Shown here one piece after another: positions 4,859 to 38,858 of a DNA stretch of 64,000 bases (position 1 is its first letter; every line of letters starts with the position of its first letter). The notes beneath the pieces were generated by a model. It was not told where the DNA came from, made no database searches, and saw only the letters and a list, made by a program, of their open reading frames with translations. Origin of the DNA: Desulfobacteraceae bacterium (GTDB lineage Bacteria > Desulfobacterota > Desulfobacteria > Desulfobacterales > Desulfobacteraceae); the NCBI GenBank assembly GCA_016743945.1, contig JADGFI010000029.1, positions 6,720-70,719 on the forward strand, in the 5' to 3' direction. The translations under genes and the position numbers were made by a program.

Positions 4859-5692
4859 TTATCCCCGTTTTCCACCGAGTTTAAAGCCGGGCTGAACCTG
4901 GATGAGTTTTTTAGTATAGGGGTGTTCGGGGTGCTGGATAATCTTGTCAGCCCTATTGACCTCAACAATATGTCCTTCGTGGATCACGGCAATCCTGTCA
5001 CACAAATAATTGGCCGCTGCCAGATTATGGGTGATAAACAAAAAGGTCATATCAAATCTTTCCCGGATCTCGGTGAGCAGTTTGAACAATTGGATGGCAA
5101 TGGTGGCATCCAGCATGGAGGTGGGCTCATCTGCCACGATAAAGTCCGGATCCAGCACAATGGCCCTTGCAACGGCGACCCGCTGACGCTGACCACCGGA
5201 AAGCTGATGGGGATACCGGTCATAGAAATCATTGCCCGGCGATAACCCTACAATTTCCAGGGTATGCAGCACCTTCTCCCTTTGGCTAGTGGTATTGCCG
5301 AGCCCATGGACCACCAGGGGTTCTGATATCGTCTGGGCAATTGATAAATGGGGGTTCAATGATTGATAGGGATCCTGAAAAATCATCTGTACCTTTGACC
5401 GGTACGCTTTCAGGGATGCGCCCTTTAAGCGGTTGATAGGACTGCCGTTCAAATAGATACTTCCCGAAGTGGGCGCTTCCAGTCGGACCAGAAGACGGCC
5501 GGTGGTGGTCTTACCACTGCCGCTCTGGCCGACCAATCCGAATATTTCCCCCTTTTCAATGGAAAGATCAATGCTGTTTAAGGCCAAAACCTTGTTCTGG
5601 GATTTTGAAAAAAACTGTTTCCGGGGCGTGTACTCTTTGGTTACCCCCTTCATTTCGATCAAGCTCGATTTTTTCGGATGGTTTTTACTCAT
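4859..5692 (-). CDS. oppF: Oligopeptide/dipeptide ABC transporter ATP-binding protein (OppF/DppF-like)
   Basis: Walker A GQSGSGKTT, signature LSGGQRQRV, Walker B DFIVADEPT; C-terminal HPYTKKL. Confidence 0.92.
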   Translation of the reverse strand: MSKNHPKKSSLIEMKGVTKEYTPRKQFFSKSQNKVLALNSIDLSIEKGEIFGLVGQSGSGKTTTGRLLVRLEAPTSGSIYLNGSPINRLKGASLKAYRSKVQMIFQDPYQSLNPHLSIAQTISEPLVVHGLGNTTSQREKVLHTLEIVGLSPGNDFYDRYPHQLSGGQRQRVAVARAIVLDPDFIVADEPTSMLDATIAIQLFKLLTEIRERFDMTFLFITHNLAAANYLCDRIAVIHEGHIVEVNRADKIIQHPEHPYTKKLIQVQPGFKLGGKRG

Positions 5693-6662
5693 TTGCTTTC
5701 CTGGTAATGGTTTCTTCGCAACAAAGGGCCCGATGGGTTTTCGAAAGACTCACCCAATGGGGAATCCCCGCCTTGCAGTCACTGGAGCAGCTTTTACAAT
5801 TAACCGCAAACCTGCACCCCCCGCTTTTAAGGGTTAAATCAGGAGCTTCGCGCATATCTGGAATAATGACAGACGCTTGATTGTCAAGACTCAGATAAGA
5901 TCCCAGCAGGGTTTTTGTATAAGGGTGGCGGGGAGAGGAAAACACCTCTTCACAGGTTCCCATCTCCACAATCTGTCCCCCATACATCACACAGATGTCC
6001 TCACAAACCGATGCCACCACGGCAATATCATGGGAAATAAAAATCAACCCGGTATTCATGGCCTGTTGAATGATCTTTATCTCTTTAAGTATCTGATCCT
6101 GGACAATGACATCAAGGGCAGTGGTGGGTTCATCGGCAATGATGAGCTGTGGGTTGCAGGCCAGGGCCATGGCAATGATCACCCGCTGTTTCATACCCCC
6201 GCTGTATTCGTGGGGGAAATCCTTCATCCGGGCCCGGGGAATTTCCACAAGGTCGAACAATTCCCTTACCCGTTTATCCAAATCATTGGGCGAGATATCA
6301 GACTGATGGGTCACAATGGCTTCAATCACCTGTTCATCCACCCGCATAACCGGATTAAGCGCGTTCATGGCGGCCTGGAAAATCATGGCAATTTCCTTTC
6401 CCCGAACCTTTCGCCATTGATCTTCAGTCAATTGGGTCAAATCCTTGTTCAAAAACCCGATACTGCCGCCCAAAATTTGAGCATTGTCCGGCAAAAGCCC
6501 CATAAGGGTCATGCCGATGGTGGTTTTCCCGCAACCGGATTCGCCTACAAAGCCCAGGGGCCTGCCCTTTTCAAGCTCAAAGGAGATATCATCAACCGCC
6601 TTGAGTATCCCCTCCTTTGTCTGGTAACCGATGCTCAAATTTTTTATGGATAGCAATGCCAT
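5685..6662 (-). CDS. oppD: Oligopeptide/dipeptide ABC transporter ATP-binding protein (OppD/DppD-like)
   Basis: GESGCGKTT, YSGGMKQRV, LIIADEPTTALD; C-terminal Cys-containing Opp domain. Confidence 0.92.
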   Translation of the reverse strand: MALLSIKNLSIGYQTKEGILKAVDDISFELEKGRPLGFVGESGCGKTTIGMTLMGLLPDNAQILGGSIGFLNKDLTQLTEDQWRKVRGKEIAMIFQAAMNALNPVMRVDEQVIEAIVTHQSDISPNDLDKRVRELFDLVEIPRARMKDFPHEYSGGMKQRVIIAMALACNPQLIIADEPTTALDVIVQDQILKEIKIIQQAMNTGLIFISHDIAVVASVCEDICVMYGGQIVEMGTCEEVFSSPRHPYTKTLLGSYLSLDNQASVIIPDMREAPDLTLKSGGCRFAVNCKSCSSDCKAGIPHWVSLSKTHRALCCEETITRKANE

Positions 6663-6666: not shown

Positions 6667-7560
6667 CTAGGACTGCCCCTCCTTTCTTAACCGTGGGTCC
6701 AAAACTTCGTCCATGGCACGGCCCATCAAATAAAAAGCCAGGGTCAGCAGAGAAATACTTAAGCCCGGCGGAATCAGCCAATAGGGTGCCTGGAACATAT
6801 GGCCCGATTTCCAGACCCATTGGAGCATCATCCCCCAACTGACCTGGGAAGGATCCCCAAACCCTAGAAAAGAAAGGGCGGCTTCCACAAGAATGGCCGA
6901 GGTGACCCGAAAGGTCATGTATAAAAATGCCAGGGGAAGCACATTGGGCATAATATGACGGAAAATAATGCGCAGATGGGAGGCCCCGGCTACCTGGGAT
7001 GCTTCAATAAAGGGTCGCTGTTTCAATGAAAGGGTCTGGGATCTGATAACCCTGGAAACCGCAGGCCAGCGCATGATGGCAATGATAAACACAATAATCC
7101 ATATGTTAAATTGACCGAATAAAGAGGCCAGGATCAGCAGAATAACCAGGGAAGGCATGACCATGATAATATCGGCGGTTCGCATGAGAAAAGCATCCAG
7201 CATTCCGCCGGCATATCCCGAAACCATACCGACCACCGTCCCAATGACTATACTGAAAAAGGCACTGGATAACCCCACGATAAAGGCCACTTTTGCCCCT
7301 TCCAACAGCTGGGCAAACAGATCCCGGCCCACATTGTCCGTTCCCAGCAGATGGGTCAGGCTGGGGCCGGTGGAAACCCTGATATTAGGGTCAATCCCCG
7401 TCATGGGATCATACATGGGATTTATATGGGGAACAAAGAAACTGGCAAGGGCCATGAGCATGAACACCAATAAAATGATCACCCCTGTCTTGCCCAGGGG
7501 ATTTTGAATAAAAATTTTCCAGCTTTTCAAAAAGCGTCGAATATAATGGTTTTTCAGCAT
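6667..7560 (-). CDS. oppC: Peptide ABC transporter permease (OppC/DppC-like)
   Basis: Multi-TM; LGTDNVGRDLFAQLLEGAKVAFIVG and EASQVAGASHLRIIFRHIMPN EAA-loop motifs; start MLKNHY at 7560. Confidence 0.9.
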   Translation of the reverse strand: MLKNHYIRRFLKSWKIFIQNPLGKTGVIILLVFMLMALASFFVPHINPMYDPMTGIDPNIRVSTGPSLTHLLGTDNVGRDLFAQLLEGAKVAFIVGLSSAFFSIVIGTVVGMVSGYAGGMLDAFLMRTADIIMVMPSLVILLILASLFGQFNIWIIVFIIAIMRWPAVSRVIRSQTLSLKQRPFIEASQVAGASHLRIIFRHIMPNVLPLAFLYMTFRVTSAILVEAALSFLGFGDPSQVSWGMMLQWVWKSGHMFQAPYWLIPPGLSISLLTLAFYLMGRAMDEVLDPRLRKEGQS

Positions 7561-7609
7561 AATTACACCTTTTCTTCTATTCCTTTTGCACGGGTTTTGC
7601 CCGGGGGGT

Positions 7610-8584
7610 TCAATAGGTAATCCTCGGATCCAGATAGGCATAGAGAATATCCACAATCAAATTGGCCACCAGCACCACAAGGGCGATCAGAAGAAAGCAG
7701 GCCTGGGCCAGGGGATAATCATTGTTACTCACCGCAAAAATCAGCTCCCTCCCTATGCCGGGCCAGGTAAATATCTGTTCGGTCAGGGCGCCCCCGTTAA
7801 TGGAAAAAGCAAGACTTAAGCCCACACTGGTCACCACGGGAAGGGCTGCATTTTTTGCGGCATGCTTGTTGCGGATCATCTTCTCACTCAAGCCCTTGGC
7901 CCTTGCGGTAATGATATAATCTTCTCTGAGCACACTGAGCATGGACGATCGCATGAGCAGAAGATAAGCGCCAAGGTTGATGATAAAAAGAGTCAAAAGC
8001 GGCAGTATCATATGGTGAATAATGTCCAAAACTTTTTCAAACCAGGAGGCGTTTCCCACCCACAGTTCAGGGGACAAAATACCGCCAAGGGGGAAAAGCC
8101 CCAGCTTGAAGCCCAGAACCCAGAGCAGCAATAGGGCAAACCAGGGTATAAACAGGGTATAGCAGACAAGGGCAGATATGGACATGACACTGTCCAGTCG
8201 GCTTCCTTTATTCCAGGCCGCTATCTTCCCCAAAAATACCCCGGCAAAGGCTGCCAGGATGGTGGAAGAGGTAAACAATAAGATGGTCCACCCCAGCCGT
8301 TCCCTGATAATTTTAAAAACAGGCTCTCCATAGTGAAAGGAAACCCCAAAATTGCCGATAAAAAAATTTTTCAGATAAATCACATATTGTTCCCACATGG
8401 GCTTGTCCAGCCCCATCTGTTCGATGAGATACCGCATATCTTCAGGCGTCAGCATGGGGTCCACCACCTTTGAGATGGGATCCCCTGGAGAAAGCCTGAA
8501 CAAAAAAAATAATGCCGTCATAATCACAAAAAAAATAATTGCAATTTCAACTAATTTACCCAAAATATAGGTCTGGTTTCTCAT
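7610..8584 (-). CDS. oppB: Peptide ABC transporter permease (OppB/DppB-like)
   Basis: FFLFRLSPGDP N-terminus; ITARAKGLSEKMIRNKHAAKNA EAA loop. Confidence 0.9.
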   Translation of the reverse strand: MRNQTYILGKLVEIAIIFFVIMTALFFLFRLSPGDPISKVVDPMLTPEDMRYLIEQMGLDKPMWEQYVIYLKNFFIGNFGVSFHYGEPVFKIIRERLGWTILLFTSSTILAAFAGVFLGKIAAWNKGSRLDSVMSISALVCYTLFIPWFALLLLWVLGFKLGLFPLGGILSPELWVGNASWFEKVLDIIHHMILPLLTLFIINLGAYLLLMRSSMLSVLREDYIITARAKGLSEKMIRNKHAAKNAALPVVTSVGLSLAFSINGGALTEQIFTWPGIGRELIFAVSNNDYPLAQACFLLIALVVLVANLIVDILYAYLDPRITY

Positions 8585-8610: not shown

Positions 8611-10362
8611 TCACTGGACGGGTTTGACCACGCACATGGACCAAACATTGCCGATGCCGTCCACCTTGGCCACCCACCCCGTAAAACGTTCGTTAAAGGT
8701 GGCTTCAATGATATGGGGATTGTACAGAGGCAGGTAGGGAATATCTTCCAGAACCATCTCCTGCATTTTCCAGATAAGATCTTTCCGTTTTTGTGTATCA
8801 ACGAGGGCCATCTGATCTTCGGCAATCTTATCGAACGCAAGATTGTGGTATCCGCTCATATTCCAGCCCCGGGGTTTGTCATTTTTAGAATAAAAAAAGG
8901 ATCGCAAATAATCCGGATCCAAATCCAGCTGGCCATAGCCCAGAATAAAGGCATCAAATTCGTGTTTCCCCTTGACCGTATCCAGCAGGGAACTAAAGGC
9001 CATGGGGCGGGCTGAGGCCGGCAGTCCCAATTCCCTGACCCATTCTTGCACCATGGTACCGGCAAATGCCCGCTTGGGGTCATAGTCGGCAGGGGGTGTC
9101 AGGATAACAAATTTCTCCATTTTTTCTCCGGACGGCAACAGGATATCCGATGGGGTAACAATCTTTCCCTCTTCGGTCACAGGTGGCCTGTCCCAGGAAT
9201 ATCCGGCTCCCTTAAGCATTTTGTGGGCCAATTTGATCCGCTGATCATGGTCTTGTCCCTGGCCGTATTTTCGTACCTTGGGGTTGTACCAAAAATGATT
9301 TCCCGAAGGGACAACCGAATGCATGGGGGTACCAAAATTTTGTAAAATCCGTGTCAGGATAAACTCCTTATTGATCACCGTGGCAACGGCCTGGCGAAGC
9401 ACCTTGTCGTTAAAAGGCGCTTTTCTTAAGTTAAAACCCAAATAATACAAGGCACTTTTTTTATTAAAATACAGGTCAATATTGGTCTGCTCCTTGAGAT
9501 CCTTGATATAGCCCGGCTGAATATCCCCCCAATAATAATCGATATCCCCTTTTTTAAGGGCAAGGATGGCCACGTCAGAGGTGCCGTATACTCTGAACAA
9601 AAGGCTGTCCACATAGGGACCCAGCAAATGATTGCCGATTTTGAGACCTTTACCGAAAAAATACCGGTTTCTCTGCATATGGATATAGGCCCCTTTTTTA
9701 TGTTCAACCAAGGTAAAAGGACCCGTGCCAATGGGCTTTTCAATGGCATGATCCTGGAGGGAGCGAAGGGGCTTTTCCTTGGCCAGGGCCTCCCTGGCAA
9801 CGGCTTCCCACTCTCGTTTGGAAACCATGGGCGCTGTCATGACCCGGGACATGAAAATGGCAGAAGGTTTTCTCAGATAAAAAACAACCGTATGGGCATC
9901 AAGGGCTTCAATTTTTTTAATGATATTCCATTTGCTGTAATATCTGGGAATTTTAAAATCAAAAAACAATTGCTTGGTGAACAACACATCTTCACTTGTA
10001 AAATCTGACCCGTCGGACCATTTGGCATCCCGAAGATTCACCGTATAGGTCAGGGCTTCGGGATCAAAAATCGGCTTTCCCTTGGCCAGCCAGGGAATGA
10101 TTTCAAGAGTTTCAGGATGACGATGGTAAAGGGGCTGATAAATCTGGGACAAAATTCTGCGAGAGTTGGCATCGGTTCCAAGCCACAGGTTTAAAGACCT
10201 GGGTTCTTCAGGAAGCCCTATTTTTAAAAACGCTTGTTCACTGGTTTTTTGGCAGGAAGAAAAAAGCCCTGCCATTGCAACCAGCAGTATGGCCAGCAGC
10301 AACAGGTTAAAGCAGAATTCAGCCCGCCACGTTAACCGATAGGTTCCCTTGTTTTGATGCAA
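8611..10362 (-). CDS. oppA: Peptide ABC transporter substrate-binding lipoprotein (SBP family 5)
   Basis: SBP_bac_5-like (EEPRSLNLWLGTD, TYTVNLRDAKWSDGSDFTSEDVLFT); lipobox GLFSSC; probable TTG start at 10362 preceded by GAGGAG, overlapping the 3' end of the upstream gene. Confidence 0.87.
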   Translation of the reverse strand: MHQNKGTYRLTWRAEFCFNLLLLAILLVAMAGLFSSCQKTSEQAFLKIGLPEEPRSLNLWLGTDANSRRILSQIYQPLYHRHPETLEIIPWLAKGKPIFDPEALTYTVNLRDAKWSDGSDFTSEDVLFTKQLFFDFKIPRYYSKWNIIKKIEALDAHTVVFYLRKPSAIFMSRVMTAPMVSKREWEAVAREALAKEKPLRSLQDHAIEKPIGTGPFTLVEHKKGAYIHMQRNRYFFGKGLKIGNHLLGPYVDSLLFRVYGTSDVAILALKKGDIDYYWGDIQPGYIKDLKEQTNIDLYFNKKSALYYLGFNLRKAPFNDKVLRQAVATVINKEFILTRILQNFGTPMHSVVPSGNHFWYNPKVRKYGQGQDHDQRIKLAHKMLKGAGYSWDRPPVTEEGKIVTPSDILLPSGEKMEKFVILTPPADYDPKRAFAGTMVQEWVRELGLPASARPMAFSSLLDTVKGKHEFDAFILGYGQLDLDPDYLRSFFYSKNDKPRGWNMSGYHNLAFDKIAEDQMALVDTQKRKDLIWKMQEMVLEDIPYLPLYNPHIIEATFNERFTGWVAKVDGIGNVWSMCVVKPVQ

Positions 10363-11338
10363 TAATTTTCTCCTCGATAAAATCCACCAGGGTTGACTCA
10401 AGCTTATCATTATTAAACAAGTTGATCCGGGGAATCCCCCCGGGGCTGACACAATTGACCTCAACCAGTTTATCTCCGATCACATCAATGCCCACAAAAT
10501 ACAGGCCGTCTTGAATTAATTTGGGTTTTATTATTTCACAGATATTCATTTGTGCAGGTGTTATCACATGTTTAAAGGCCCGGGCACCTGCGTGAACATT
10601 GGTTCTAAAATCACCGGGAACCGATTGCCTTCCCATGGCACCCAAAACGTCCCCGTTGAGCAGTAAAATTCTGACATCCCCATCATCCTTCACTGATTTT
10701 ATATACTCCTGGACCATAATCGGCGTTCGTTCCGGATAGGGTTTCCCAGCGTGTACATAATAATTGATTAAAGAATTGAGATTCTCCGGCTCCCGGTTAC
10801 TGACCTTGATAACCCCGTGTCCGCCATGTCCGTGTAGGGGTTTTATCACCATGTCACCGCCAAAATCATCAATGATTTTCCTCAACCTTCTGGGGTCCCG
10901 TGACACATGGGTTTCGGGAATAATATCCGGAAAATTTAAGATATAGGCCTTGGAGTTACCATTCACCTGTCCAATGGTATTGTTAATCATGAAGACCTTG
11001 TCGCTGACAGGTCCTAAAAACTCCATGGTTTCATAGAGAAGGGGGGGGTCTTTGCGCAAAAAAAGGACATCCAGGTCTGTTACGGTTTCAAAAATCAACT
11101 CTTCCTTGTCCAGGCACTGGATCAATTTATTCCAGTATTCGGTAATGGAAAGATTTTGCTCAACCGTGATTTGACGCATCCTGGCAACCACTTTATTCTT
11201 ACGGATATAAATATCATGGGGCTCTAAAAAATAGACTGAATATCCCCGTTGGTTACATTCATACATAATATAGGCAGTTGTTTCCCAAACCGGATCAATC
11301 TGCCGCAAATCATCCATCAAAAAACCGATTTCCATCAT
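10319..11338 (-). CDS. gshB: Glutathione-synthetase-like ATP-grasp protein
   Basis: GshB-like N-terminus (IGFLMDDLRQIDPVWETTAYIMYE), ATP-grasp DMVIKPLHGHGGHGVIKV, GDVRILLLNGDVLGAMGR, FVGIDVIGDKLVEVNCVSPGGI. Confidence 0.83.
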   Translation of the reverse strand: MMEIGFLMDDLRQIDPVWETTAYIMYECNQRGYSVYFLEPHDIYIRKNKVVARMRQITVEQNLSITEYWNKLIQCLDKEELIFETVTDLDVLFLRKDPPLLYETMEFLGPVSDKVFMINNTIGQVNGNSKAYILNFPDIIPETHVSRDPRRLRKIIDDFGGDMVIKPLHGHGGHGVIKVSNREPENLNSLINYYVHAGKPYPERTPIMVQEYIKSVKDDGDVRILLLNGDVLGAMGRQSVPGDFRTNVHAGARAFKHVITPAQMNICEIIKPKLIQDGLYFVGIDVIGDKLVEVNCVSPGGIPRINLFNNDKLESTLVDFIEEKIIASKQGNLSVNVAG

Positions 11339-25694: not shown

Positions 25695-27140
25695 GTGAGG
25701 AAAAATTTTTTACCGATGATCGGAAAAAATAAAAAAAATGGGGTCCGAGAAATCCTTTTAATGGGGGTATTCTGGCGAATCCTCTTCATTGAAGCGGTTT
25801 TGCTTGTCTATTCTCTTTTTTACAGATGGTTCACAGACAATGCCGGACCCTCTGATCTGTTCTGGTATGCCATCCGAATTATCCTGCTTGTGGGAATTAT
25901 CATTATTTTTATGATGGTCACCTTGAAAAAATTTCTCACTGACAAAATCATTACCCCCCTGGAATCCCTTGCAGCTGCCAACAAGGAGATCCAAAAAGAT
26001 TATACCAGGGCCGACAAAATAGATCTGGCAGATGATTCCCCGGATGAAATCAGAACCATTGTCACCTCAAGGGCTGCCATGCTCAAACAAATCCTGGCGG
26101 TTTCCGAAGAACGATTGCATCTGGTCAACTTTATCAAAGAAACATTTGGGCGGTATCTTTCCCAAACAGTTGTGGATGAAATCCTGGCCTCCCCGGAAGG
26201 GCACAAAATCGGCGGCACCAGAAAAGAGGTGACGGTATTGATGTCGGATCTAAGGGGATTTACCAGCCTGTCCGAGGACAGGGACCCCGAAGAAATGGTT
26301 CAATTGCTCAACCGCTACCTTGAAAAAATGTCCAAAATAATTTTAAAATACGACGGGATAATTGATGAAATCATCGGGGATGCCATCCTTGCAGTATTTG
26401 GCGCCCCGAAAAGCCATGGCAATGACCCGGAAAGGGCAATTGCCTGTGCCATTGAGATGCAAAACTGCCTGGCAATATTAAACCAGGAGGTTCTTGAATC
26501 GGGATATCCCTGTCTTGAAATGGGTATTGGTATTAATACCGGCACTGTCATTGTAGGGAATATCGGTTCCGAGGTCAGGATGAAATACGGAATCGTCGGC
26601 GATGCGGTAAATCGGGCATCCAGGATCGAATCCAACAGCGTCGGCGGACAAGTGCTCATTGGTGAATCCACCTACAGCCGGGTAAAACCCACAACAAAGG
26701 TGATGCCGGCCCAGCATATTATGATGAAGGGCATGAAAAAACCCTTGGTTTTTTACTCCGTTTTTGCCATTGAAACCCAAAATTACAACGTCGCGCTCGA
26801 GGCATCTATACCTTCGGATGCCCGACTTGCCATAAAGCTCCCTTTTCAGTACTGGACCATCCAGGATAAGAAAATAAGCGCCCTGCCCCTCCTCGGAGAG
26901 ACAATCGCAATGGATGAAAACAATATTTATGCGACGACCACCCACCCCATTGACCTGTACACAGACATTAAACTGAACTTTGATTTCTGTGTTGAGGCCC
27001 ATTGTTTTGATGATATCTATGCCAAAAGCACGTCAACCCAAATGGGACAGAACCTCCGCCGCACAAAGTTCAGCATTACGGCCATGGATGAAAATGACAA
27101 AACGATCATTAGAAAATGGATGAAAGAAGCAGCCGTTTGA
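25695..27140 (+). CDS. Membrane-anchored class III adenylate/guanylate cyclase with two TM and HAMP-like linker
   Basis: VTVLMSDLRGFTSLSE, IDEIIGDAILAVFGAP, NTGTVIVGNIGSEVRMKYGIVGDAVNRASRIES; GTG start at 25695 or ATG at 25716. Confidence 0.9.
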   Translation: MRKNFLPMIGKNKKNGVREILLMGVFWRILFIEAVLLVYSLFYRWFTDNAGPSDLFWYAIRIILLVGIIIIFMMVTLKKFLTDKIITPLESLAAANKEIQKDYTRADKIDLADDSPDEIRTIVTSRAAMLKQILAVSEERLHLVNFIKETFGRYLSQTVVDEILASPEGHKIGGTRKEVTVLMSDLRGFTSLSEDRDPEEMVQLLNRYLEKMSKIILKYDGIIDEIIGDAILAVFGAPKSHGNDPERAIACAIEMQNCLAILNQEVLESGYPCLEMGIGINTGTVIVGNIGSEVRMKYGIVGDAVNRASRIESNSVGGQVLIGESTYSRVKPTTKVMPAQHIMMKGMKKPLVFYSVFAIETQNYNVALEASIPSDARLAIKLPFQYWTIQDKKISALPLLGETIAMDENNIYATTTHPIDLYTDIKLNFDFCVEAHCFDDIYAKSTSTQMGQNLRRTKFSITAMDENDKTIIRKWMKEAAV

Positions 27141-27265
27141 TAGGAATCAAACGCCATCCCGCCTTTTTCTCCTTGACAAGCAAGCCAAATTGTAATTGGA
27201 TGCCTAGCATATTTTTTCTTCGACAACTTTTTAAACCCATCACATTTAAGGATTTTAGAATCACC

Positions 27266-28123
27266 ATGACTCTTTCATCTTTTTTTAATTCAGGCCTTAA
27301 AAAATATCAGAACAAAATTGCAGGGGCATTTTTCCTGTTTTTCTGCCTGCTGGTATTCTGGCCCCAGCCCGGCACGGCACAGGAAAAAAAAATCACGACC
27401 CCCCTGGGGATGTCCTTTGTCCTTGTTGAGCCGGGAACTTTTATGATGGGCAGTCCTAAAACAGAACGATTTCGAGATGCCGATGAAATCCGTCGGTCCG
27501 TAAAAATTGAGACTGCCTATTATCTGCAAACAACCGAAGTAACCCTGGGGCAATGGCGGGCCGTCATGGGAAAAAAATGGCTTAAAAAACGAAAAGGAAC
27601 CGATGATATGCCGGTCACCCAGATCTCATATTATGATTGCCTTAAATATATCGACATGCTCAATAAGAAGGGAATGGGGGTTTACCGACTCCCCACGGAC
27701 AAGGAATGGGAGTATGCCTGCAGGGCCGGCACAACAACCGCCTACAGCTGGGGAGACGCCATAGACTGTTCCAAGGCCATGTATGGCAATAACCCCAAAA
27801 AAAATGAAGAATGTACCCTTTATTTACGCTCCATAAAAATTGACACCTATGGCCCGGCACCAGTCAAAACCTATGCCCCCAATCCCTGGGGATTTTATGA
27901 TATGCACGGCAATGTATGGGAATGGTGTTCAGACACATATTCCGCCTACCTGTCTGGCCCTACACCTAAAGCATACAATCCTATGGATTCGGATTCCCAT
28001 ATCAGAAGAGGGGGCAGCTGGTATAAATACGGACGATATCTTCGAAGTGCCAATCGCACCTATGCCCACCCAGGCGCAAAACTTCTCACAACCGGTTTCA
28101 GACTCGTCCGAGAGGCAAATTAA
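27266..28123 (+). CDS. Secreted formylglycine-generating-enzyme/sulfatase-modifying-factor (SUMF1) domain protein
   Basis: Signal peptide; FVLVEPGTFMMGSP, RLPTDKEWEYACRAGTTTAYSWGD, GNVWEWCSD, RGGSW; ATG at 27266 preferred. Confidence 0.87.
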   Translation: MTLSSFFNSGLKKYQNKIAGAFFLFFCLLVFWPQPGTAQEKKITTPLGMSFVLVEPGTFMMGSPKTERFRDADEIRRSVKIETAYYLQTTEVTLGQWRAVMGKKWLKKRKGTDDMPVTQISYYDCLKYIDMLNKKGMGVYRLPTDKEWEYACRAGTTTAYSWGDAIDCSKAMYGNNPKKNEECTLYLRSIKIDTYGPAPVKTYAPNPWGFYDMHGNVWEWCSDTYSAYLSGPTPKAYNPMDSDSHIRRGGSWYKYGRYLRSANRTYAHPGAKLLTTGFRLVREAN

Positions 28124-31100
28124 TGCGCGTAAAGATCCTAGGTCTCTTAAAAATATATGAAGAAGAAATCAACCTCCTGCTGTGGACAATGGCCCTTTTG
28201 TTTATTATCCGCAGTTCCGGTGTTATCTTGAACAACTATGCAGAAACCGCTTTTTTAAAACGATACGGGGTTGAATACCTGCCCATTGTCAACATGATCA
28301 ATGCTGTGGCCACCTTTTTTATCACAGGCGTTATGTCGATGTTCCTCGGAAAAATGGCCGGTGCCAGGCTGCTCTACTATGTCTTTATCATATCCGGCGT
28401 CCTTGTAACAATTATCCGGTTGCTGATTCCCTTTGGGTTTGATCTGTTGTATCCACTTCTTTTCATGCTTAAAAGCCAATTTGAACTGCTCCAGGCCTTG
28501 TTATTCTGGAATTTATGCAATGATCTTTTCAATATGCGCCAGTCCAAAAGGCTGTTTCCTATTCTGACGGCAGGAGGCGTGATCGGTCTGATTCTGGGCA
28601 GCGTGGGAACCCCCTATTTTGCCAAAACCTTTAACCTGGACAACCTGCTCTACATGTATCTTTGCACCACCCTCATGGGTGCTTTCATTGTCCAGGCAAT
28701 GGGCCGGAGTTATTCCACCCTTATTTTCCCGGAAAAAATCCAAAAAGAAGGGGCTGTCACCAAGAAGAAACCCTCCATGATCCAGGAGATGAAGGATGTA
28801 TACCCCCTGCTCAAAGACTCGATACTGGTCAAAATCGTGTTGGTGCTGACCTTTATGCCCAATGTGGTCATCCCCATCATGAATTATCAGTTTAACTATG
28901 CCATCAATGACCAGTTTGCCTCGGAAGCGGCCATGATCCAGTTTTTCGGGTTTTTTCGGGGGGGCTTGTATACCATCAGTCTGATCATCCTGCTCTTTGT
29001 GGGCAGGATATACGGACGATGGGGCCTACCCGTAGCCCTGATGTTCCACCCCTTTAATTACATGATTGCATTTTTTGCATTTCTCTTCCGGTTTGATATC
29101 TTCGCCGCCATGTATGCCAGGATGTCCACCAATATCCTGAGAACCACCATCAATATGCCGGCAAACTCCATTTTAATCGGACTTTTCCCGGAATCCTACC
29201 GGAACATGATCCGCCCCTTTTTAAGGGGAACCGTGGTGAGGATGGCGCTGTTTACAGGTTCCACATTAATTTTGATCTCAAGTTCCTATTTCCACCCCAG
29301 GTATTTGACCCTTGTGGCCCTGCCCTTTGTACTGGCCTGGATGGCAGCACCCTTTGTATTGAAATCTAAATATGCCATGATCCTCAAGGATTTGATTTCA
29401 AAAAACCTGTTGGATATAAAGAGCCTTGACCAGGAAGAGCTGGGAAGTATTTTCAACCAGGACAAGGTATTGTCCGACCTGGAAACCTCTTTTTTAGCTG
29501 CCCGGGGAAAAGATGCCATCTGGTATGGCCAATTACTGAAAAATTTTTCACCCATAAAATTGGATCAGCAAATTCTCAACAATCTTGAAAAGCAGGACCC
29601 AATAACCCAACGGACCCTTATTAAAATGATCTCCCCACCATCCCGGGCAAATTCAGCCAAACGATTGATCCGGTTCCTAGACCCGAAAAAACAAGAGGTC
29701 ACCATTGCCATATTAAAACTTGTTTGCCAGAACAATATCAGGGCAATAAATAAGGTGGATTTAACCCCCTATATTAAAAATGAACATCCGGTTGTCAGAG
29801 GATTTGCTGCTGCCTGCCTCTACTCAAGGGATCCTGCGCAGCACCGCCCCATGATTACAACCTGGCTTGGGTCCAAGGACAACAATCTGCGGCAATCGGG
29901 TATTGTCAGTGCAGGCCTGAGCAATGACAGGGAATATATTGACAAGTTGCTTTCCATATTATCGGAAGAAAATATTGACCCCATCATTCCGGACATTATC
30001 AGAGCCCTGTCCCGGTTAAGGGCCAAAGAATTGAATGCCGTTATTTTCTCCTACCTCGCCTATGACCGACCCGATGTCAGAACAGCGGCCCTGGATGCCC
30101 TGGAAATCAATGATGATGTTTCCCTGAAAAAATCCATCCTTCTCCTGGGAGACAACATTGATTCCATCCATGAATTTGCCAAGGAAAAGATACGGACAGC
30201 AGAATTTCAAAACAACAAACTGTTGGTTGAATCCTTAGGAATGCCCAGCACCCGAATTCGAAGGGGCTTGTTTGAACTTTTAGAAACCCTTGACATAAAA
30301 GAGTTTGAAATTTTGATGTTTGCCAAGGAGAATCTGAATAAAAGCTATACCTACCTTGCCATGGAAGAAAACCTGGCCCATCTTCCCCAGGGGAAAATGC
30401 GGGATCTTGCCGGTGAGCACCTGCTGCAAAAAAAAGATGTGGTGCTTGAAAATATTATTCGAGTCCTTGCCATCCATGATCAGACAGGGAGGATGAAAAC
30501 CGCCTGGCGGGGAATTTTTTCACCAGATACCCGACAAAGGGCCAATGCCATTGAATTACTCTCTGATATTCTGGACCGCAAAACCTTTAATTCCATGCTT
30601 CCCCTGCTGGAAAGCCCCACCCCGGAAATGACCCTGACCGAAGGAAGAAAAATAATAAAAATTGCCAAACTGGACCCCCAGGGAAAAGAGGCTCTTTCAA
30701 ACCTGCTGACCTCTGAAGACTGGGTGGATGTTCTCATGGGATTAAATCTGATCAATGAAAATCCCACCCATTACGATGCAAGGAAAATGTTGAATGAGTT
30801 GGAAAATTCAATCAATAAACATATTTTAAAGGAAGTTCAAATGATTTTAAACAACCCTAGGGAAACTTCAGATCCCAATAAAATTAAATCCACGGAAATA
30901 TCCCTGGGAGAAAAAATACTTCTATTAAAGGAAATTGAAATTTTTTCCGGATTGAGTGCTGCCGAGCTTGCCGCCATCGCAGCGGTAACAAAGGAACTGG
31001 ATTATCCCAAAGACAAAACCATCATCAAACAAAACGATGTGGGGGAAACTGTGTTTCTCATCATAAAAGGCCGTGTGGAAGTGATCATGGAACAGGCAGA

Positions 31101-31332
31101 CGGCAAAGAGGTGATGCTGGACCACATTGGATCCGGCGGGGCTTTTGGGGAGATGGCATTGATGGACGACGCCCCCAGATCCGCCACTATAAGGACCATT
31201 GAGCCGTCCAAATTTCTCATACTTCATAAACAGGAATTCAAGGAAACCGCCATGGAATTCCCCCGGATAGCGCTGCAGATATGCTCGGTGTTAAGCCGGA
31301 TTATCCGGGATCTCCATGGTAAATTCAAATAG
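28123..31332 (+). CDS. 1069-aa fusion: ATP/ADP-translocase (NTT)/MFS-like membrane domain, HEAT-like repeats, C-terminal cyclic-nucleotide-binding domain
   Basis: N-terminal ~12 TM; middle helical repeats (HPVVRGFAAACLYSRDP, RPDVRTAALDAL); C-terminal GETVFLIIKGRVEVIME...GGAFGEMALMDDAPRSATIRTIEPSKFLIL typical of cNMP-binding. Confidence 0.82.
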   Translation: MRVKILGLLKIYEEEINLLLWTMALLFIIRSSGVILNNYAETAFLKRYGVEYLPIVNMINAVATFFITGVMSMFLGKMAGARLLYYVFIISGVLVTIIRLLIPFGFDLLYPLLFMLKSQFELLQALLFWNLCNDLFNMRQSKRLFPILTAGGVIGLILGSVGTPYFAKTFNLDNLLYMYLCTTLMGAFIVQAMGRSYSTLIFPEKIQKEGAVTKKKPSMIQEMKDVYPLLKDSILVKIVLVLTFMPNVVIPIMNYQFNYAINDQFASEAAMIQFFGFFRGGLYTISLIILLFVGRIYGRWGLPVALMFHPFNYMIAFFAFLFRFDIFAAMYARMSTNILRTTINMPANSILIGLFPESYRNMIRPFLRGTVVRMALFTGSTLILISSSYFHPRYLTLVALPFVLAWMAAPFVLKSKYAMILKDLISKNLLDIKSLDQEELGSIFNQDKVLSDLETSFLAARGKDAIWYGQLLKNFSPIKLDQQILNNLEKQDPITQRTLIKMISPPSRANSAKRLIRFLDPKKQEVTIAILKLVCQNNIRAINKVDLTPYIKNEHPVVRGFAAACLYSRDPAQHRPMITTWLGSKDNNLRQSGIVSAGLSNDREYIDKLLSILSEENIDPIIPDIIRALSRLRAKELNAVIFSYLAYDRPDVRTAALDALEINDDVSLKKSILLLGDNIDSIHEFAKEKIRTAEFQNNKLLVESLGMPSTRIRRGLFELLETLDIKEFEILMFAKENLNKSYTYLAMEENLAHLPQGKMRDLAGEHLLQKKDVVLENIIRVLAIHDQTGRMKTAWRGIFSPDTRQRANAIELLSDILDRKTFNSMLPLLESPTPEMTLTEGRKIIKIAKLDPQGKEALSNLLTSEDWVDVLMGLNLINENPTHYDARKMLNELENSINKHILKEVQMILNNPRETSDPNKIKSTEISLGEKILLLKEIEIFSGLSAAELAAIAAVTKELDYPKDKTIIKQNDVGETVFLIIKGRVEVIMEQADGKEVMLDHIGSGGAFGEMALMDDAPRSATIRTIEPSKFLILHKQEFKETAMEFPRIALQICSVLSRIIRDLHGKFK

Positions 31333-31340: not shown

Positions 31341-32477
31341 TTATTCCTCTTTTAGCAGACGTTCAATGGTATCGGCCAGGTCATCCCTGCCCTGCTGCCT
31401 GAGCAAGGGAATCATGGGCCTGTAAAAGGGCGGCCTTACCCGGATGGTAATATCATATTGTTCAATATCCTTTGGAGTCACCTCATCCTCAACAAAGGCC
31501 CGGGTCTTGTGCAGCACCCCCAGGGCGGTGAGTTCTGTCATGGTCCGGACACATTTTTCACATTTTCCACAGTTCAAACGGTCCGGGACATTGGCAAGGC
31601 AGACCCGAAAATTCTGGAATGCCACATCCCAGTCAGAGACAATTCTTATTTTTGCAAGCCGGGACATTTCATAATCCCGGTGGCGAAGTCTCACCCCAAA
31701 ACTTGAATATTCCGGATCCAGGAGGGGATGGGAGCCGCAGGGATGCAAGTTGGGAATATCATAGGAGGATCCGATGAACATCAGGTTTATTCTATTGCTG
31801 AAGGTATGGGCCATGGCTGCCAGAACAGCCCCAAAAAAACTGTCCAGCCACAGTTCCCGCTCATCACACAAATGACGAATATTGGTATAGACCGGAATCA
31901 ATTGTGTGTCTGCATCCCGGGTAATCTTTGAAATTGCATCCATGGCCCGGTCAAACACATGGTATTTGCTCCCCCGCTCAACCACACCGCCGATATCAAA
32001 GCCGTGGAGGAAAAAACTGTCCCGCACATACCCGGGGTGGGTCTTGGGGTAGTGCAGGCGGTTTAACCGTAGGGCGGCAAGGGAATCCATGCCGCCGGAT
32101 ATAACCATACCGGTCCTGGAAGGGCTCAAAATTGACATATTTTCCCGGGGTTTTGCCTCGATCTTTATGGGAGAATACCGACGGTTGCTTGAACCTTTTG
32201 TCCAGTGGGACAAAATATTCATGGCAACCCCTATCCCTTCTTTGAGAAAGGGACAGATATCTTGATCCAAAAATATTCTTTTCTCGCCCAGATGAAGGGC
32301 CGGCAAAAGGCACCCCACTAAAAATGCATCTGGATTGGCCCCAAATCCTGCGGCAAAGGGAATAGGGGTTTTTATATATACGGTTTGTTCGGGCCGGTTG
32401 CAGTCTTCAAAGATCACCCGGGCTGCGGCCGTAACAAATTCAGAATCCTGGGTCAGATTAAAATCAAGAATTTTCAT
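31341..32477 (-). CDS. PP-loop ATPase-like protein (QueC/adenine-nucleotide alpha-hydrolase-like) with Cys pairs
   Basis: SGGMDSLAAL PP-loop motif; C-terminal NCGKCEKCVRTMTELTALG. Confidence 0.7.
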   Translation of the reverse strand: MKILDFNLTQDSEFVTAAARVIFEDCNRPEQTVYIKTPIPFAAGFGANPDAFLVGCLLPALHLGEKRIFLDQDICPFLKEGIGVAMNILSHWTKGSSNRRYSPIKIEAKPRENMSILSPSRTGMVISGGMDSLAALRLNRLHYPKTHPGYVRDSFFLHGFDIGGVVERGSKYHVFDRAMDAISKITRDADTQLIPVYTNIRHLCDERELWLDSFFGAVLAAMAHTFSNRINLMFIGSSYDIPNLHPCGSHPLLDPEYSSFGVRLRHRDYEMSRLAKIRIVSDWDVAFQNFRVCLANVPDRLNCGKCEKCVRTMTELTALGVLHKTRAFVEDEVTPKDIEQYDITIRVRPPFYRPMIPLLRQQGRDDLADTIERLLKEE

Positions 32478-32506
32478 TATTTTTTTATTTCCATTGGGTT
32501 AAAATT

Positions 32507-33439
32507 TCATCTCTCAACTTTTTTATTCAAGGTGACAAAAGTGACATACTCAATAATCTGTCGGGAAATATCTCGCCCGGTTGCTTCTTCCAACCCCCTG
32601 AACCCTGGAGAATAATTCACCTCAACCACAAGGGGGCGCCCCCCTTTTTCAACGATCATATCCACACCGGCGATTTCAAGACGACAGGCCCTGGCAGCTT
32701 CAAGGGCCAGACCTACCCATTCCTCTGGCGGATCAATGGCAGTTGCCAGGCCATGTTGATGGATATTGGCCCGAAAATCCCCGGGGGGAGGTTCAAGGAC
32801 CATTGCCCCGGCCACACGGCCTCCTATCACCAACAATCGAACATCCTGTCGGCCTTTGGGTGTGATAAATTTTTGAACCAACATCCCCTTCAAAGGATTG
32901 AGATGGGTATCCAGGAATATTGCTGCCTGGGCCCGGGTCTCAATCTTGACCACCCCGTCTCCCCCCATGCCATCCACCTGTTTGGCAATAACGGGAAACC
33001 CGCCCAGATGGTCGGCTGCTTTAAAAAAGCAAGCGGCCTTGGTAACAAAACAGGAATTGGGAACTTCTATCCCGGCAGCGACCAGGGTTTGGAGGGTTAT
33101 ATACTGATTTTTTGCAATGGTTACCCCCTCAATGCCGTTGACCAGGGGAATTTTCATCGTTGCAAAATGGCGGAGCAAAACAAAACCATATTCCCCCATG
33201 GGTGATCCCTGACGAGGCAAAATCACATGGGGAAGAGGACCGGCAAGATCCATAAAAAAACCATCGGACCCGGCAAAACCAGAAGACTGAGCAAAACCGG
33301 TTTTCCCCATGTCCATGGCACAGGTTATTTCATAGGGATTAATGAGCAAAATCTTATGACCCAAATGGGCTGCAACTTCTATAAACCGTTTGTTGGGATG
33401 AAAATCAACGCCGTTGACGGTCATTATTCCGATGATCAA
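32507..33439 (-). CDS. RimK/GshB-type ATP-grasp ligase
   Basis: GGFPVIAKQVDGMGGDGVVKI, DVRLLVIGGRVAGAMVLEPPPGDFRANIHQHG, IAGVDMIVEKGGRPLVVEVNYSPGFRGLEEATG; TTG start overlaps the upstream stop (TTGA). Confidence 0.82.
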   Translation of the reverse strand: MIIGIMTVNGVDFHPNKRFIEVAAHLGHKILLINPYEITCAMDMGKTGFAQSSGFAGSDGFFMDLAGPLPHVILPRQGSPMGEYGFVLLRHFATMKIPLVNGIEGVTIAKNQYITLQTLVAAGIEVPNSCFVTKAACFFKAADHLGGFPVIAKQVDGMGGDGVVKIETRAQAAIFLDTHLNPLKGMLVQKFITPKGRQDVRLLVIGGRVAGAMVLEPPPGDFRANIHQHGLATAIDPPEEWVGLALEAARACRLEIAGVDMIVEKGGRPLVVEVNYSPGFRGLEEATGRDISRQIIEYVTFVTLNKKVER

Positions 33440-35388
33440 TTTCCTTGTCCCCTGCCCTTGTCCCCTGGCCTTGTCAATTGGAGGGTATCAATCATCTTTT
33501 CAGGCATCCACACCCCCATTTCCTTGTTTAGTTTTTCACTAAAATAGGTCAAAATTTTTTTTGTATTGTTCCGACGCGCAATTTTCTGGGTGGCCAGATT
33601 ATCTTCGCTTATAATGGAAAACACCTTGTAATCTTTTACCCTTCGGGTAAGCCCTTCCAATAACTTTGCCCCCACCCCCATGGCACGATACTCCGGCCTT
33701 ACCGAGGTATATCCCCTTTCAACAAAGTTAGAAAAGTCAACCCCGGTCATCTGTTTAAGCCGGTGTATAAAAACGGCTCTGGGGTGTTTTAAACTTGAGT
33801 TTCCAATGATCACCCCATTTTCCATGGCATACCCGATCTTGTAGGCCCGTTCAAGGTTGGATCTGACATGGGTTGTATCCACGGATCCTCCGGCTTCCAC
33901 CATTTTGCAGATTTCATCCAAAACCCCCGGGGGAAGGTCTGCCGGTGATTGATAGAAAAACTGCATTTGGGTTCCAAGGGAAATAACCCCATGATTTGTC
34001 ATGTCGGCCCGGATACACCCCAATGACTTCCGGGTAAACTGGCTCAGATAAACCAGCAGATTGCTGGTATCCCCGAGAACTTTCCAAAAGGGGATCCCCG
34101 GCAAAGGCTTAACCCTGGCATATTCCATGAGCCCATGGGGCATTGCCGGACTGAACGAGTTTCCTTGATTCAAATTTGAATCTGAATCTTGGGTTCCGGC
34201 TTGATTTGTATTTTGGAAGGAATGGACAATATTGGGGTTATTTACAATAAATTTTGCCTGAAGGCTGTTTTCCCTGAACAGATTCGGCCATGACACATGA
34301 TTCCAAATGCCAAGCTTGGATGCCTTCCACAATGTCTTTTCATATATGTTGGTGCTGTTTGTCTCTTTTTCCCATAGGATCAGTCTAAGCCCGGCTGAAA
34401 AAAGATCAGACAATTTATGATCCTCTTCGAGAAAGGGTTCCCCCATTCGGACCTGCATACTGAAAAACACCGAGGATTGTTTTATTGAAAACCAGTGGGC
34501 CAGATGCCGGTACATCCTGGCCCAGGAAACCGCATTTCCTTTCTCCTGGGTTTTTGGATTCACTTTTCCCCAGTCCCCGGCAAGGGGTTCTGAAAAAAAA
34601 GATGCCTGGCCAAACACAAAGCCCTGGACCCCCAGAGACCGAACCTGGTCTTCCAAAAAAACTGCGAGTAAAACAGGATCTTTAAAAAAAAACGGATTCA
34701 CCAAGATCACTCGCTCCGGGGTTAAATATGGATCCAGGGGCAGGGCGTCAAAATCCGGCAAAATAGTGTGGGGATCAAGTTTTATGCCATGGGTCTGGTT
34801 GAAATAATCGACCAACGGGCCAAGGCACCTGGAATCCTGATTCCAAATGAGATGGTCAAAGTAGTGGGAATCTAAAAAATCCAATCTGATGTTTGCCATT
34901 GCCAGGACCCCAACCCCGGGATATCGGGATTTAATGTAAGCGGCCATTGTCTGTGCGGCAACCACCTGATCCTGGGAAGAAACAAAAAAAATTACACTGC
35001 CGGGATCATGCTTGAAAAATTGTCTCTCAAGACCTTGTTCACACAACAGCGCAAAGGGGCTGCGGTCACCAGCCCCGTCCCTTGGGGTACCAGCCCAAGG
35101 AGGAACATGGAGAATCGAGGACAGGCAGGTGTTAATTTTATGTTTACACGATAGAAAACTATGGGGGTCATAAAATTCTTTTCCCGTAAGTTTTTTTATC
35201 ACCCCACGGGTTTCACAAACCGAAAAAAGATGGCTCCGATAAAAATCAAGATTTGCATCATAGAAACAGGGATTAAGCCCGGAACCTGCCAGACTCCCTG
35301 TCACCACGGCCGCACCCCAACAGGGGTATACAGGGCTGACAGTCGGTGGATGAATCAATAAAATAGTCGGTGATATCATAGGAACCAA
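33436..35388 (-). CDS. Large protein: N-terminal region resembling a B12-binding/radical-SAM scaffold lacking the cluster cysteines, C-terminal GNAT acetyltransferase
   Basis: N-term TILLIHPPTVSPVYPCWGAAVVTGSLAGSG and PDFDALPLDPYLTPERVILV; C-term YTSVRPEYRAMGVGAKLLEGLTRRV GNAT motif A. Confidence 0.6.
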   Translation of the reverse strand: MVPMISPTILLIHPPTVSPVYPCWGAAVVTGSLAGSGLNPCFYDANLDFYRSHLFSVCETRGVIKKLTGKEFYDPHSFLSCKHKINTCLSSILHVPPWAGTPRDGAGDRSPFALLCEQGLERQFFKHDPGSVIFFVSSQDQVVAAQTMAAYIKSRYPGVGVLAMANIRLDFLDSHYFDHLIWNQDSRCLGPLVDYFNQTHGIKLDPHTILPDFDALPLDPYLTPERVILVNPFFFKDPVLLAVFLEDQVRSLGVQGFVFGQASFFSEPLAGDWGKVNPKTQEKGNAVSWARMYRHLAHWFSIKQSSVFFSMQVRMGEPFLEEDHKLSDLFSAGLRLILWEKETNSTNIYEKTLWKASKLGIWNHVSWPNLFRENSLQAKFIVNNPNIVHSFQNTNQAGTQDSDSNLNQGNSFSPAMPHGLMEYARVKPLPGIPFWKVLGDTSNLLVYLSQFTRKSLGCIRADMTNHGVISLGTQMQFFYQSPADLPPGVLDEICKMVEAGGSVDTTHVRSNLERAYKIGYAMENGVIIGNSSLKHPRAVFIHRLKQMTGVDFSNFVERGYTSVRPEYRAMGVGAKLLEGLTRRVKDYKVFSIISEDNLATQKIARRNNTKKILTYFSEKLNKEMGVWMPEKMIDTLQLTRPGDKGRGQGN

Positions 35389-35478: not shown

Positions 35479-35724
35479 TTATTTACGGAAGTGATAATTC
35501 CATCCCTTATCACGCATACATCGACGGGAATGGTCTATTTCCTCGCCTTCTCTGTACTCTTGCAATCTTTCTATTGAATAGGCCCTGGCTTTTTTTTCAC
35601 ATTCACTCTGGTCTTCATAAAATTGAGCCTTTGATTTTTCCGGGTGCTCGGCAACATATTGATAGCAGCCGCTTATGCACAAAGACAAGACACCCATCAA
35701 TCCTGAGAACACTATTTTTTTCAT
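35479..35724 (-). CDS. Small putative lipoprotein
   Basis: MKKIVFSGLMGVLSLCISGCYQ signal/lipobox; start at internal ATG 35724. Confidence 0.6.
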   Translation of the reverse strand: MKKIVFSGLMGVLSLCISGCYQYVAEHPEKSKAQFYEDQSECEKKARAYSIERLQEYREGEEIDHSRRCMRDKGWNYHFRK

Positions 35725-35883
35725 CTTTTTTAAACTCCTGTTCAACCTTTTATTTAACAAGGCCCCTTTATTTACCAGTACCATTGCATACGCCTTAAAG
35801 AATCATAATCTATCAACCCCGCTTCATAAAATCAACGGCAAACAGATCTTGATCTATAATGCTGCTCATAAATTCCCAACAGA

Positions 35884-36429
35884 TTATTTTACGTGTTCCG
35901 TGATCACAACCGATATTTTTTTTCGGATCAATTGCCCCTGGCTCTGGATGGATAGAAGAATGCTGTTTTCCCCAGGGGAAAGTTTACCGCCATAAAGCCC
36001 TGGTTTGTCCTTGCCTGCAGAATAGTCTTTCCTTTCGGCCATGGCAATTTTTGCAAGTGGAAACAGCCGCCTGGAAAACCGGGTTCGTGGCGGGATAACC
36101 TCATTGGGAATACGCTTTTCCCGTACCTGGGTTGGTTCAATCCCCTTAAACACAAACCCGCCCCGATTTTTTTCATCATAGATATACAGGGTCTTATTCC
36201 AGTCAATTTCGATGCTCTCATCTGATTTGTTTTCAATTTCCAGCATAAAGGATGAAAAATAACGGGCATCTTCCCTGGCAGGCGCAAAACTTGCGGTAAA
36301 GGCTTGGGTCTCAATCGTCTTTGATACCGGACTGCTGGCATATTCATAGACAGCAGCCGAACATCCTAAACCGCCCAGCATCATGGTGACAATAATCCCT
36401 ATGGCAAACCTGACAACTCCATATTTCAT
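35884..36429 (-). CDS. Putative lipoprotein of unknown function
   Basis: Signal peptide with GLGCSA lipobox; beta-rich body. Confidence 0.6.
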   Translation of the reverse strand: MKYGVVRFAIGIIVTMMLGGLGCSAAVYEYASSPVSKTIETQAFTASFAPAREDARYFSSFMLEIENKSDESIEIDWNKTLYIYDEKNRGGFVFKGIEPTQVREKRIPNEVIPPRTRFSRRLFPLAKIAMAERKDYSAGKDKPGLYGGKLSPGENSILLSIQSQGQLIRKKISVVITEHVK

Positions 36430-37811: not shown

Positions 37812-38858
37812 TCAAATCAAAATGATGCTTTCCTGGGGGAGCTGAATTTTTATGGTTTGCCCTGGCCTGTAATTGTTTTCGTTTCTACCATAAAGAACAA
37901 TCGGTAACTGAGCGTTTAAAACAATTTCAGTATAGTAGGGTTTTAGCCGGACCGTTTCTATAGTTGCCGACAAAATATTTTCTTTATTGTCCAATTCTTT
38001 ATTATTTGGTTCTTTATTATTTGGGGCGTCACTGATGACCAAAATATTTTCCGGTCGTATGGCTGCAATCACATCTCCTTTTAGCTGATTTTTCTTAACA
38101 AGCGTTGTTTTGCCTATGTTGAGAGTGTTGCCGTCACTAACCGCTTTAAAAATATTTTGTGTTTTTAGAAAATCCGCAGTGAATTTCGTTTCAGGTTTTT
38201 TCATAAGCGCCTGGAGAGTTCCGGTCTGAACGATCCTGCCCTCATTCATGATCGTGATCTTGTCAGCAACGTCGGACGCCTCTTCAAAATTATGACTGAT
38301 ATGAATAAAGGTACTATGGGTCTCTCTTTGCAGCCTGCGAAGTTCTCTGGCCATGGTGCTTCTCAGGTTTTCATCAAGGGCAGACAGTGGCTCGTCCATC
38401 AAAACAATACTTGGTTTTGTTGCCAGGGCACGGCCCAAGGCTACCCGCTGTTTTTCACCCCCGCTCAGGTGAAGGGGCATCCTGTGCCGGATAGATTCAA
38501 TTTTAAGACTTGCAATTATTTCATCAACAATCTTATGAATATTTGATTTGGGCATATTTCTGGCTTCAAGACCATAGGCCAGGTTTTTTTCCACAGACAG
38601 GTTCGGAAATAATGCGTAATCTTGAGGAACATAGGCAATATTACGTTCCTCAATGGGGAGGGATAAAATATCCTCACCATTTACAAAAATTTTTCCACTG
38701 ACAGGACTGTATATGCCCACGATATATTCTATCAATACGCTTTTACCAGCTCCTGTGGGACCCAGTATGACATGATATTCACCCGTCTCAACGGTCAGAT
38801 TAATCCCACGTAATTTAAAATCACCCAGATTACCATTCAAATTTTTTATTTCTATCAT
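37812..38858 (-). CDS. ABC transporter ATP-binding protein, molybdate/tungstate/sulfate-type with C-terminal TOBE-like region
   Basis: GPTGAGKSVL, LSGGEKQRVALGRAL, VLMDEPLSALD; RPENILVI; start MIEIKN at 38858. Confidence 0.86.
   Translation of the reverse strand: MIEIKNLNGNLGDFKLRGINLTVETGEYHVILGPTGAGKSVLIEYIVGIYSPVSGKIFVNGEDILSLPIEERNIAYVPQDYALFPNLSVEKNLAYGLEARNMPKSNIHKIVDEIIASLKIESIRHRMPLHLSGGEKQRVALGRALATKPSIVLMDEPLSALDENLRSTMARELRRLQRETHSTFIHISHNFEEASDVADKITIMNEGRIVQTGTLQALMKKPETKFTADFLKTQNIFKAVSDGNTLNIGKTTLVKKNQLKGDVIAAIRPENILVISDAPNNKEPNNKELDNKENILSATIETVRLKPYYTEIVLNAQLPIVLYGRNENNYRPGQTIKIQLPQESIILI
37980..38024. repeat. 15-bp tandem repeat (2 perfect + 1 degenerate copy) inside the ABC ATPase gene
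   Basis: ttctttattatttgg at 37995-38009 and 38010-38024; degenerate ttctttattgtccaa at 37980-37994; encodes PNNKE-PNNKE-LDNKE. Confidence 0.9.

Follow-up and report, generated by a model that had tools for sequence, protein, structure and literature searches.

A Conserved Gene Set Joins GNAT, PP-Loop, and ATP-Grasp Enzymes to an NTT-HEAT-cNBD Membrane Protein in Desulfobacterales and Relatives

Introduction

Adenylation of a substrate followed by coupling is the chemistry typical of QueC-, AsnB-, and GMPS-type enzymes. A PP-loop enzyme that shares some features with QueC is encoded, together with a RimK-family ATP-grasp ligase and a GNAT protein, on a 64,000-nucleotide stretch of a Desulfobacteraceae bacterium genome (GCA_016743945.1, contig JADGFI010000029.1, positions 6,720 to 70,719 of the forward strand; hereafter, the window). 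An earlier note, made from the letters of the window, described the three genes as a compact operon and proposed that their products make or attach an amide-linked small molecule or peptide tag. Among the closest described systems are the asnO-ngg operon of the N-acetylglutaminylglutamine amide (NAGGN) pathway, glutathione synthetase, and the QueC family, whose substrate motifs YxQxHxxE, VPxRN, and YPDC have been reported (PMC13329287). NTT-HEAT-cNBD fusion proteins, one of which is encoded next to the trio, are known and widespread, and were reported in 2017 as uncharacterised (PMC5381601).

Results

The three genes lie on the minus strand (Table 1). A check of open reading frame (ORF) coordinates, which were called by a simple longest-ORF rule, bore out the gene order of the earlier note, as well as the 4-bp TTGA overlap of the GNAT and RimK genes (33436-33439) and the 29-bp gap between the RimK and PP-loop genes (32478-32506). 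All sampling was done within one phylum, and many of the genomes are metagenome-assembled genomes (MAGs); the closest named relatives found were Desulfobacteraceae and Desulfobacula MAGs. At all 43 fetched loci with the PP-loop gene, the GNAT gene shares its strand (median distance 921 bp); the RimK gene does so at 37 of them (median distance 20 bp). Because of this same-strand linkage, the order of the trio is not due to chance. The outcome that the earlier note named as refuting its proposal, separate characterised pathways without synteny in relatives, was not observed. The three-gene unit was, however, drawn too narrowly: while the trio is co-encoded at 37 loci in relatives, the unit is larger, and RimK is absent from loci in other classes.

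To delimit the unit, one set of 242 genomes of the class was searched with four queries. The PP-loop protein (at least 50% identity) was found in 48 genomes and the GNAT protein in 47; strong matches to the NTT-HEAT-cNBD protein and to a glutathione-synthetase-like (GshB-like) ATP-grasp protein were found in 52 and 49, respectively. All four families were present in 44 of the 242 genomes, and any of the four in 54. Every pair of families gave a Fisher p < 1e-38, a value that ignores shared ancestry. In the window's own family the distribution is patchy, and 19 of the 19 carriers hold all four families, which argues against simple shared ancestry. Co-occurrence does not depend on adjacency, since in G133 and G195 the GshB-like gene is megabases away or on another contig.

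A compact form of the system was found in two other classes, one represented by five genomes (G616, G628, G603, G499, and G459) and the other by G412. At these loci the NTT, GNAT, and PP-loop genes lie on the same strand with short overlaps, the GshB-like gene is beside them or nearby, and an N-formylglutamate-amidohydrolase-type gene is usually present; RimK was found at none of the six. The GNAT of the five-genome class is a standalone protein of 177-197 amino acids (aa). G412 also has two long frames, of 929 and 1649 aa, which are read not as fusions but as open-frame artefacts, since the longer one overlaps an intact NTT frame. As the compact loci in other classes hold these genes and no RimK, the most widely conserved set consists of NTT-HEAT-cNBD, GNAT, PP-loop, and GshB-like. 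In Desulfobacterales the set is extended by RimK and a dipeptide-type ATP-binding cassette (ABC) importer, and the GNAT protein gains an N-terminus that is cobalamin/radical-SAM-like but cysteine-less; a secreted FGE-domain protein (putative signal peptide) and a nucleotide cyclase are further frequent additions. In G106 and G225 the GNAT/PP-loop pair is absent, and an ATP-grasp_3 protein of 459-469 aa adjoins RimK (L107:10584-11963 and L108:1990-3399); it is possible that this protein replaces the pair in amide-bond formation.

The PP-loop protein contains both motifs pointed out in the earlier note, SGGMDS and NCGKCEKC. It scored above the cut-off for no Pfam or NCBIfam family, and no solved structure was matched by sequence. 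Its predicted structure is highly confident (predicted local distance difference test, pLDDT, 93.1). The structures nearest to the model are all weak matches (E of at least 0.086), headed by PP-loop enzymes, among them GMP synthase and TilS; asparagine synthetase comes lower down. The second motif is part of a four-cysteine site, C293-x9-C303-x2-C306-x2-C309, all four cysteines of which are invariant in the alignment. Of 40 homologues, 37 contain SGGxDS and 39 the four-cysteine pattern, the latter with a first spacing of 8-12, mostly 9. The protein falls outside the QueC family PF06508, scoring 12 bits where the cut-off is 22, and each of the three QueC substrate motifs was found in 0 of the 40 homologues. 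The protein plausibly works like QueC-type enzymes. A role in anti-phage defence of the QatC/Cap9 kind was considered and rejected: no PADLOC match was obtained up to E 0.1, and the QueC substrate motifs are missing.

PP-loop homologues at 19-46% identity, most of which are in other contexts, were left out of the class co-occurrence. Paired divergent homologues that share 38-44% identity with the window protein occur in L079, L089, and L090 (genomes G005, G164, and G073, respectively). The pair in L089 flanks a PGA_cap protein, and that in L090 has a Wzt-like polysaccharide ABC ATPase on one side and a sulfotransferase on the other. These are the same PP-loop enzyme family in a different context. 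In G505 (L080:5761-12144), an NTT-HEAT-cNBD gene is 66 bp from a distant homologue of 430 aa, after which comes a radical SAM gene; no GNAT or RimK match was found on the fetched stretch. An 821-aa protein with a PP-loop-like segment is encoded in L081 (5609-9847), near a gene joining radical SAM and F420H2_quin_red domains.

The 650-aa protein proved to be a GNAT fusion, as proposed earlier; the GNAT fold is at its C-terminus, and the likelier start is the ATG at 35379 rather than 35388, since a relative (L042) aligns from residue 4. Its Pfam GNAT score is weak (17 bits against a cut-off of 20.7). The predicted structure (pLDDT 86.5) matches GNAT structures at E of ~2e-6 to 1e-4, and so the GNAT assignment is supported by the modelled fold despite the sub-cut-off score. 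The domain (residues ~460-640) is conserved in all homologues, including the acyl-CoA motif R568-x-x-G571-x-G573 (GNAT R/Q-x-x-G-x-G/A). The N-terminal part of the model matches TsrM, a cobalamin radical SAM enzyme (6wte, E 2e-5). The radical SAM cysteine motif (CxxxCxxC, sought as C-x2-9-C-x2-C) was not found in any GNAT-protein homologue scanned, and an active radical SAM enzyme was rejected for the window protein and its listed homologues. Since the motif is missing and many homologues are bare GNAT proteins of ~180 aa, the conserved function is that of the GNAT domain, the N-terminal part being a degenerate addition.

The RimK-like ATP-grasp assignment was confirmed by PF08443 (117.8 bits) and TIGR00768 (157.9 bits, above the subfamily cut-off of 143.4; 187 bits for the relative in L069). 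The protein aligns to solved S6 glutamate ligases, and the residues of the ATP-grasp metal site are kept.

The GshB-like protein can be aligned over its whole length to the glutathione synthetase of E. coli (1gsa, 2e-36) and falls under three curated GshB cut-offs (260.8 vs. 272, 235.7 vs. 299, and 274.9 vs. 408 bits). Part of its substrate region differs from that of E. coli (SPTCIREIE vs. SPGGIPRIN). No glutamate-cysteine ligase (GshA) of families PF04262 or PF04107 was found in the window's genome; among 39 genomes of the family, PF04262 was found in none and PF04107 as a single partial match. The GshA negative rests on these two families, a PF08886 search being uninformative because its control gave no match. 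Ordinary glutathione synthesis was rejected on these scores and searches. As GshA is absent while the GshB-like gene tracks the GNAT and PP-loop genes, the data suggest that the GNAT and PP-loop proteins provide or modify the substrate of the GshB-like enzyme.

Recurrent partners of the trio were defined by clustering the genes of 52 loci. The NTT-HEAT-cNBD protein scores above cut-off for each of its domains (TLC, 26.9 vs. 21; HEAT, 43.5 vs. 27.7; cNMP-binding, 78.3 vs. 27.5 bits). On the fetched stretches of the 43 PP-loop loci, NTT was found in 36, FGE in 26, GshB-like in 25, and the cyclase in 17. The importer genes span window positions 4859-10464, and in L067 the NTT, GNAT, RimK, PP-loop, GshB-like, solute-binding protein (SBP), permease, and ATPase genes are all on the same strand. 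The amidohydrolase gene (FGase, PF05013) adjoins the system in G459, G499, G616, G628, and G141. In G004, G059, G069, G120, G139, and G212 it shares a contig with the GshB-like gene, ~6 kb away.

Table 1. Coordinates of the trio and its partner genes in the window
Feature	Coordinates	Strand	Remarks
GNAT protein	33436..35388	-	650 aa as ORF; likelier start 35379
RimK-family ATP-grasp ligase	32507..33439	-	310 aa
PP-loop enzyme	31341..32477	-	378 aa; SGGMDS and four-cysteine site; outside Pfam/NCBIfam families
NTT(TLC)-HEAT-cNBD membrane protein	28123..31332	+	1069 aa; convergent with trio; 8 bp from PP-loop gene
FGE-sulfatase-domain protein	27116..28123	+	putative signal peptide; 1-bp overlap with NTT gene; 26/43 loci
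Class III nucleotide cyclase	25695..27140	+	17/43 loci
Glutathione-synthetase-like ATP-grasp (GshB-like)	10319..11338	-	co-occurs with trio; adjoins trio in several relatives
SBP_bac_5 solute-binding protein, dipeptide-type ABC importer	8611..10464	-	
ABC permease (DppB-like)	7610..8584	-	
ABC permease (DppC/OppC-like)	6667..7656	-	
ABC ATPase with oligo_HPY region	5685..6662	-	
ABC ATPase	4859..5692	-	

Two small upstream genes (35479-35784 and 35884-36429) have no Pfam match and formed no recurrent family in the clustering, and were excluded from the unit. Genes for ribosomal protein L21 and Obg, present in the vicinity of some loci, represent ordinary synteny. A 410-aa protein whose radical SAM match is below threshold (11569-12801, plus strand) is encoded divergently from the GshB-like gene, and its family recurs in eight clustered sequences. 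An ABC transporter operon of molybdate/tungstate-like layout occupies 37812-41596 on the minus strand; it encodes permeases, an ATPase, and a binding protein of the SBP_bac_11 type.

Discussion

We give roughly even weight, for and against, to the reading that the trio is the synthesis arm of a conserved system, with transport and turnover included, that makes an N-acylated, amide-linked compound without ribosomes, most likely one based on glutamate or a glutamyl peptide. The analysis establishes how the genes are ordered and co-occur, which domains they encode, that catalytic motifs are kept (the ATP-grasp metal site, GNAT R-x-x-G-x-G, SGGxDS, and the four cysteines), and that the two GshA families are absent; all reactions, the product, the direction of transport, and the cyclic-nucleotide role are inferred, as follows. 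The GNAT domain would move an acyl group from acyl-CoA onto an amine; the PP-loop enzyme would use ATP to adenylate a carboxylate or carbonyl, which would then be joined with ammonia or an amine. Amino acids would be added via acyl phosphates by the ATP-grasp proteins, the GshB-like one and, in Desulfobacterales, also the RimK-like one, for which glutamate is the most likely addition. The dipeptide-type importer may take up the compound or a relative of it, recovering peptide-like compounds, and the NTT-HEAT-cNBD protein may move or sense the compound under control of a cyclic nucleotide from the nearby cyclase. In some lineages, the FGase-type amidohydrolase would cleave an N-acyl-glutamyl compound. 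More tentatively, the metabolite pathway itself may be new: the GshB-like ligase would receive its substrate from GNAT and a new PP-loop subfamily, and the NTT-HEAT-cNBD protein would carry or sense the metabolite under cyclic-nucleotide control, which would make the system a new ligase-plus-transporter module and not a variant of the NAGGN or glutathione pathways.

Several observations weigh against the synthesis-arm reading. No sequence feature fixes the acyl group, the amino acids, or the linkage. Some loci lack the FGE, cyclase, or ABC genes, and FGase (PF05013) was not found in the window's genome. RimK-family enzymes are able to modify proteins too. The sampling of one phylum, and the neglect of shared ancestry in the Fisher tests, count against it as well.

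An NAGGN-like osmolyte, a specific case of this reading in which GNAT would acetylate an amino acid, ATP-grasp join a second one, the PP-loop enzyme amidate the end, and an amidohydrolase recycle the product, is an unlikely explanation, even though the compact form has the same three enzyme kinds and a hydrolase gene, as in the NAGGN operon layout (PMC8070244). The families differ: TIGR03103 (Ngg) gave 29.3 vs. 569 bits, covering the ATP-grasp part only, the PP-loop protein has no glutaminase or asparagine synthase match in Pfam or NCBIfam, and with both the Ngg and AsnO family tests failing, membership in the pathway was rejected. We are more doubtful still of a glutathione-like low-molecular-weight thiol, with GNAT and PP-loop giving a glutamyl-cysteine analogue that the GshB-like enzyme finishes. 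The end-to-end similarity to E. coli GshB, the score near one cut-off (260.8 vs. 272), and the missing GshA fit such a thiol, whereas all three cut-offs are missed, the substrate region is partly different, and the cluster holds no cysteine-handling enzyme.

Protein modification that yields a tag, through RimK-type glutamylation, GNAT acetylation, and QueC-like N-terminal conjugation, is improbable. Relatives of RimK and QueC do act on proteins (the latter exemplified by Cap9, PMC13279940), but no conserved partner protein is found in the loci, QueC substrate motifs and PADLOC matches are missing, and peptide transport genes and FGase are better suited to a small molecule. Of the two products offered in the earlier note, the amide-linked small molecule fits the enzyme types, and the tag finds no support; nothing pointing to a precursor peptide was found, in line with that note. 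Slightly less credible is a peptide-like metallophore, matured extracytoplasmically by the FGE-domain protein and re-imported by the ABC transporter. Nickel and opine-metallophore binding proteins are among the SBP matches, and the FGE protein, with its putative signal peptide, matches PvdO at 82 bits; the top SBP match, however, is a general oligopeptide family, the SBP and PvdO matches all score far under their cut-offs, an outer-membrane receptor was not noted, and compact loci in other classes have no importer or FGE gene on the fetched stretch. We see only a slight chance that these are separate pathways, neighbours for regulatory or historical reasons: some loci do lack RimK, FGE, cyclase, or ABC genes, but the four families are gained and lost together across the 242 genomes and retained in varied arrangements. 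No MurL epimerase model was among the Pfam/NCBIfam matches, the presence of such a model in these libraries being unchecked.

The earlier interpretation is, overall, partly supported. Its suggestion that the system is undescribed agrees with our searches, as the PP-loop component and the gene set are unnamed in the family libraries, solved structures, and papers covered; no paper on this gene set was found in the literature searched, and papers beyond it are possible. What emerges is a concrete gene system, patchy in its distribution among sulfate-reducing bacteria and their relatives, and a PP-loop subfamily that has a QueC-like four-cysteine site and is named in none of the libraries searched. 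NTT-HEAT-cNBD membrane proteins thereby gain a definite genetic context, amenable to testing by simple deletions.

Compared with known systems, the PP-loop protein resembles the QueC family in SGGxDS and a C-terminal four-cysteine site (C-x9-C-x2-C-x2-C, a spacing near that of the C-x8-C-x2-C-x2-C zinc site in QueC), and its N- and C-terminal extensions recall QatC; it differs from QueC, QatC, and Cap9 in falling below the PF06508 cut-off, in the missing substrate motifs, and in having no close solved structure. The NAGGN pathway has enzymes of like kinds (GNAT, ATP-grasp ligase, and PP-loop amidotransferase) and a hydrolase-type gene, but the families are different, the GNAT-ATP-grasp fusion and glutaminase domain of that pathway are absent here, and transport and cyclic-nucleotide-binding parts are extra. 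The GshB-like ligase is similar to glutathione synthetase over the full length of 1gsa, unlike it in missing the curated cut-offs and in the absence of GshA in the families tested. RimK scores as a member of the alpha-L-glutamate ligases (TIGR00768) with its active-site metal residues kept, and is far under the equivalog cut-offs of the S6-specific, MptN, LysX, and CofF ligases. The N-terminal part of the GNAT protein has the overall fold of TsrM-type cobalamin radical SAM enzymes, but lacks their cysteine motif and is lost in many members. Finally, the NTT-HEAT-cNBD protein has the same three-domain architecture as the proteins of PMC5381601; a tie to specific ligase genes, which goes unmentioned in the portion of that paper at hand, is what sets the proteins of the present system apart.

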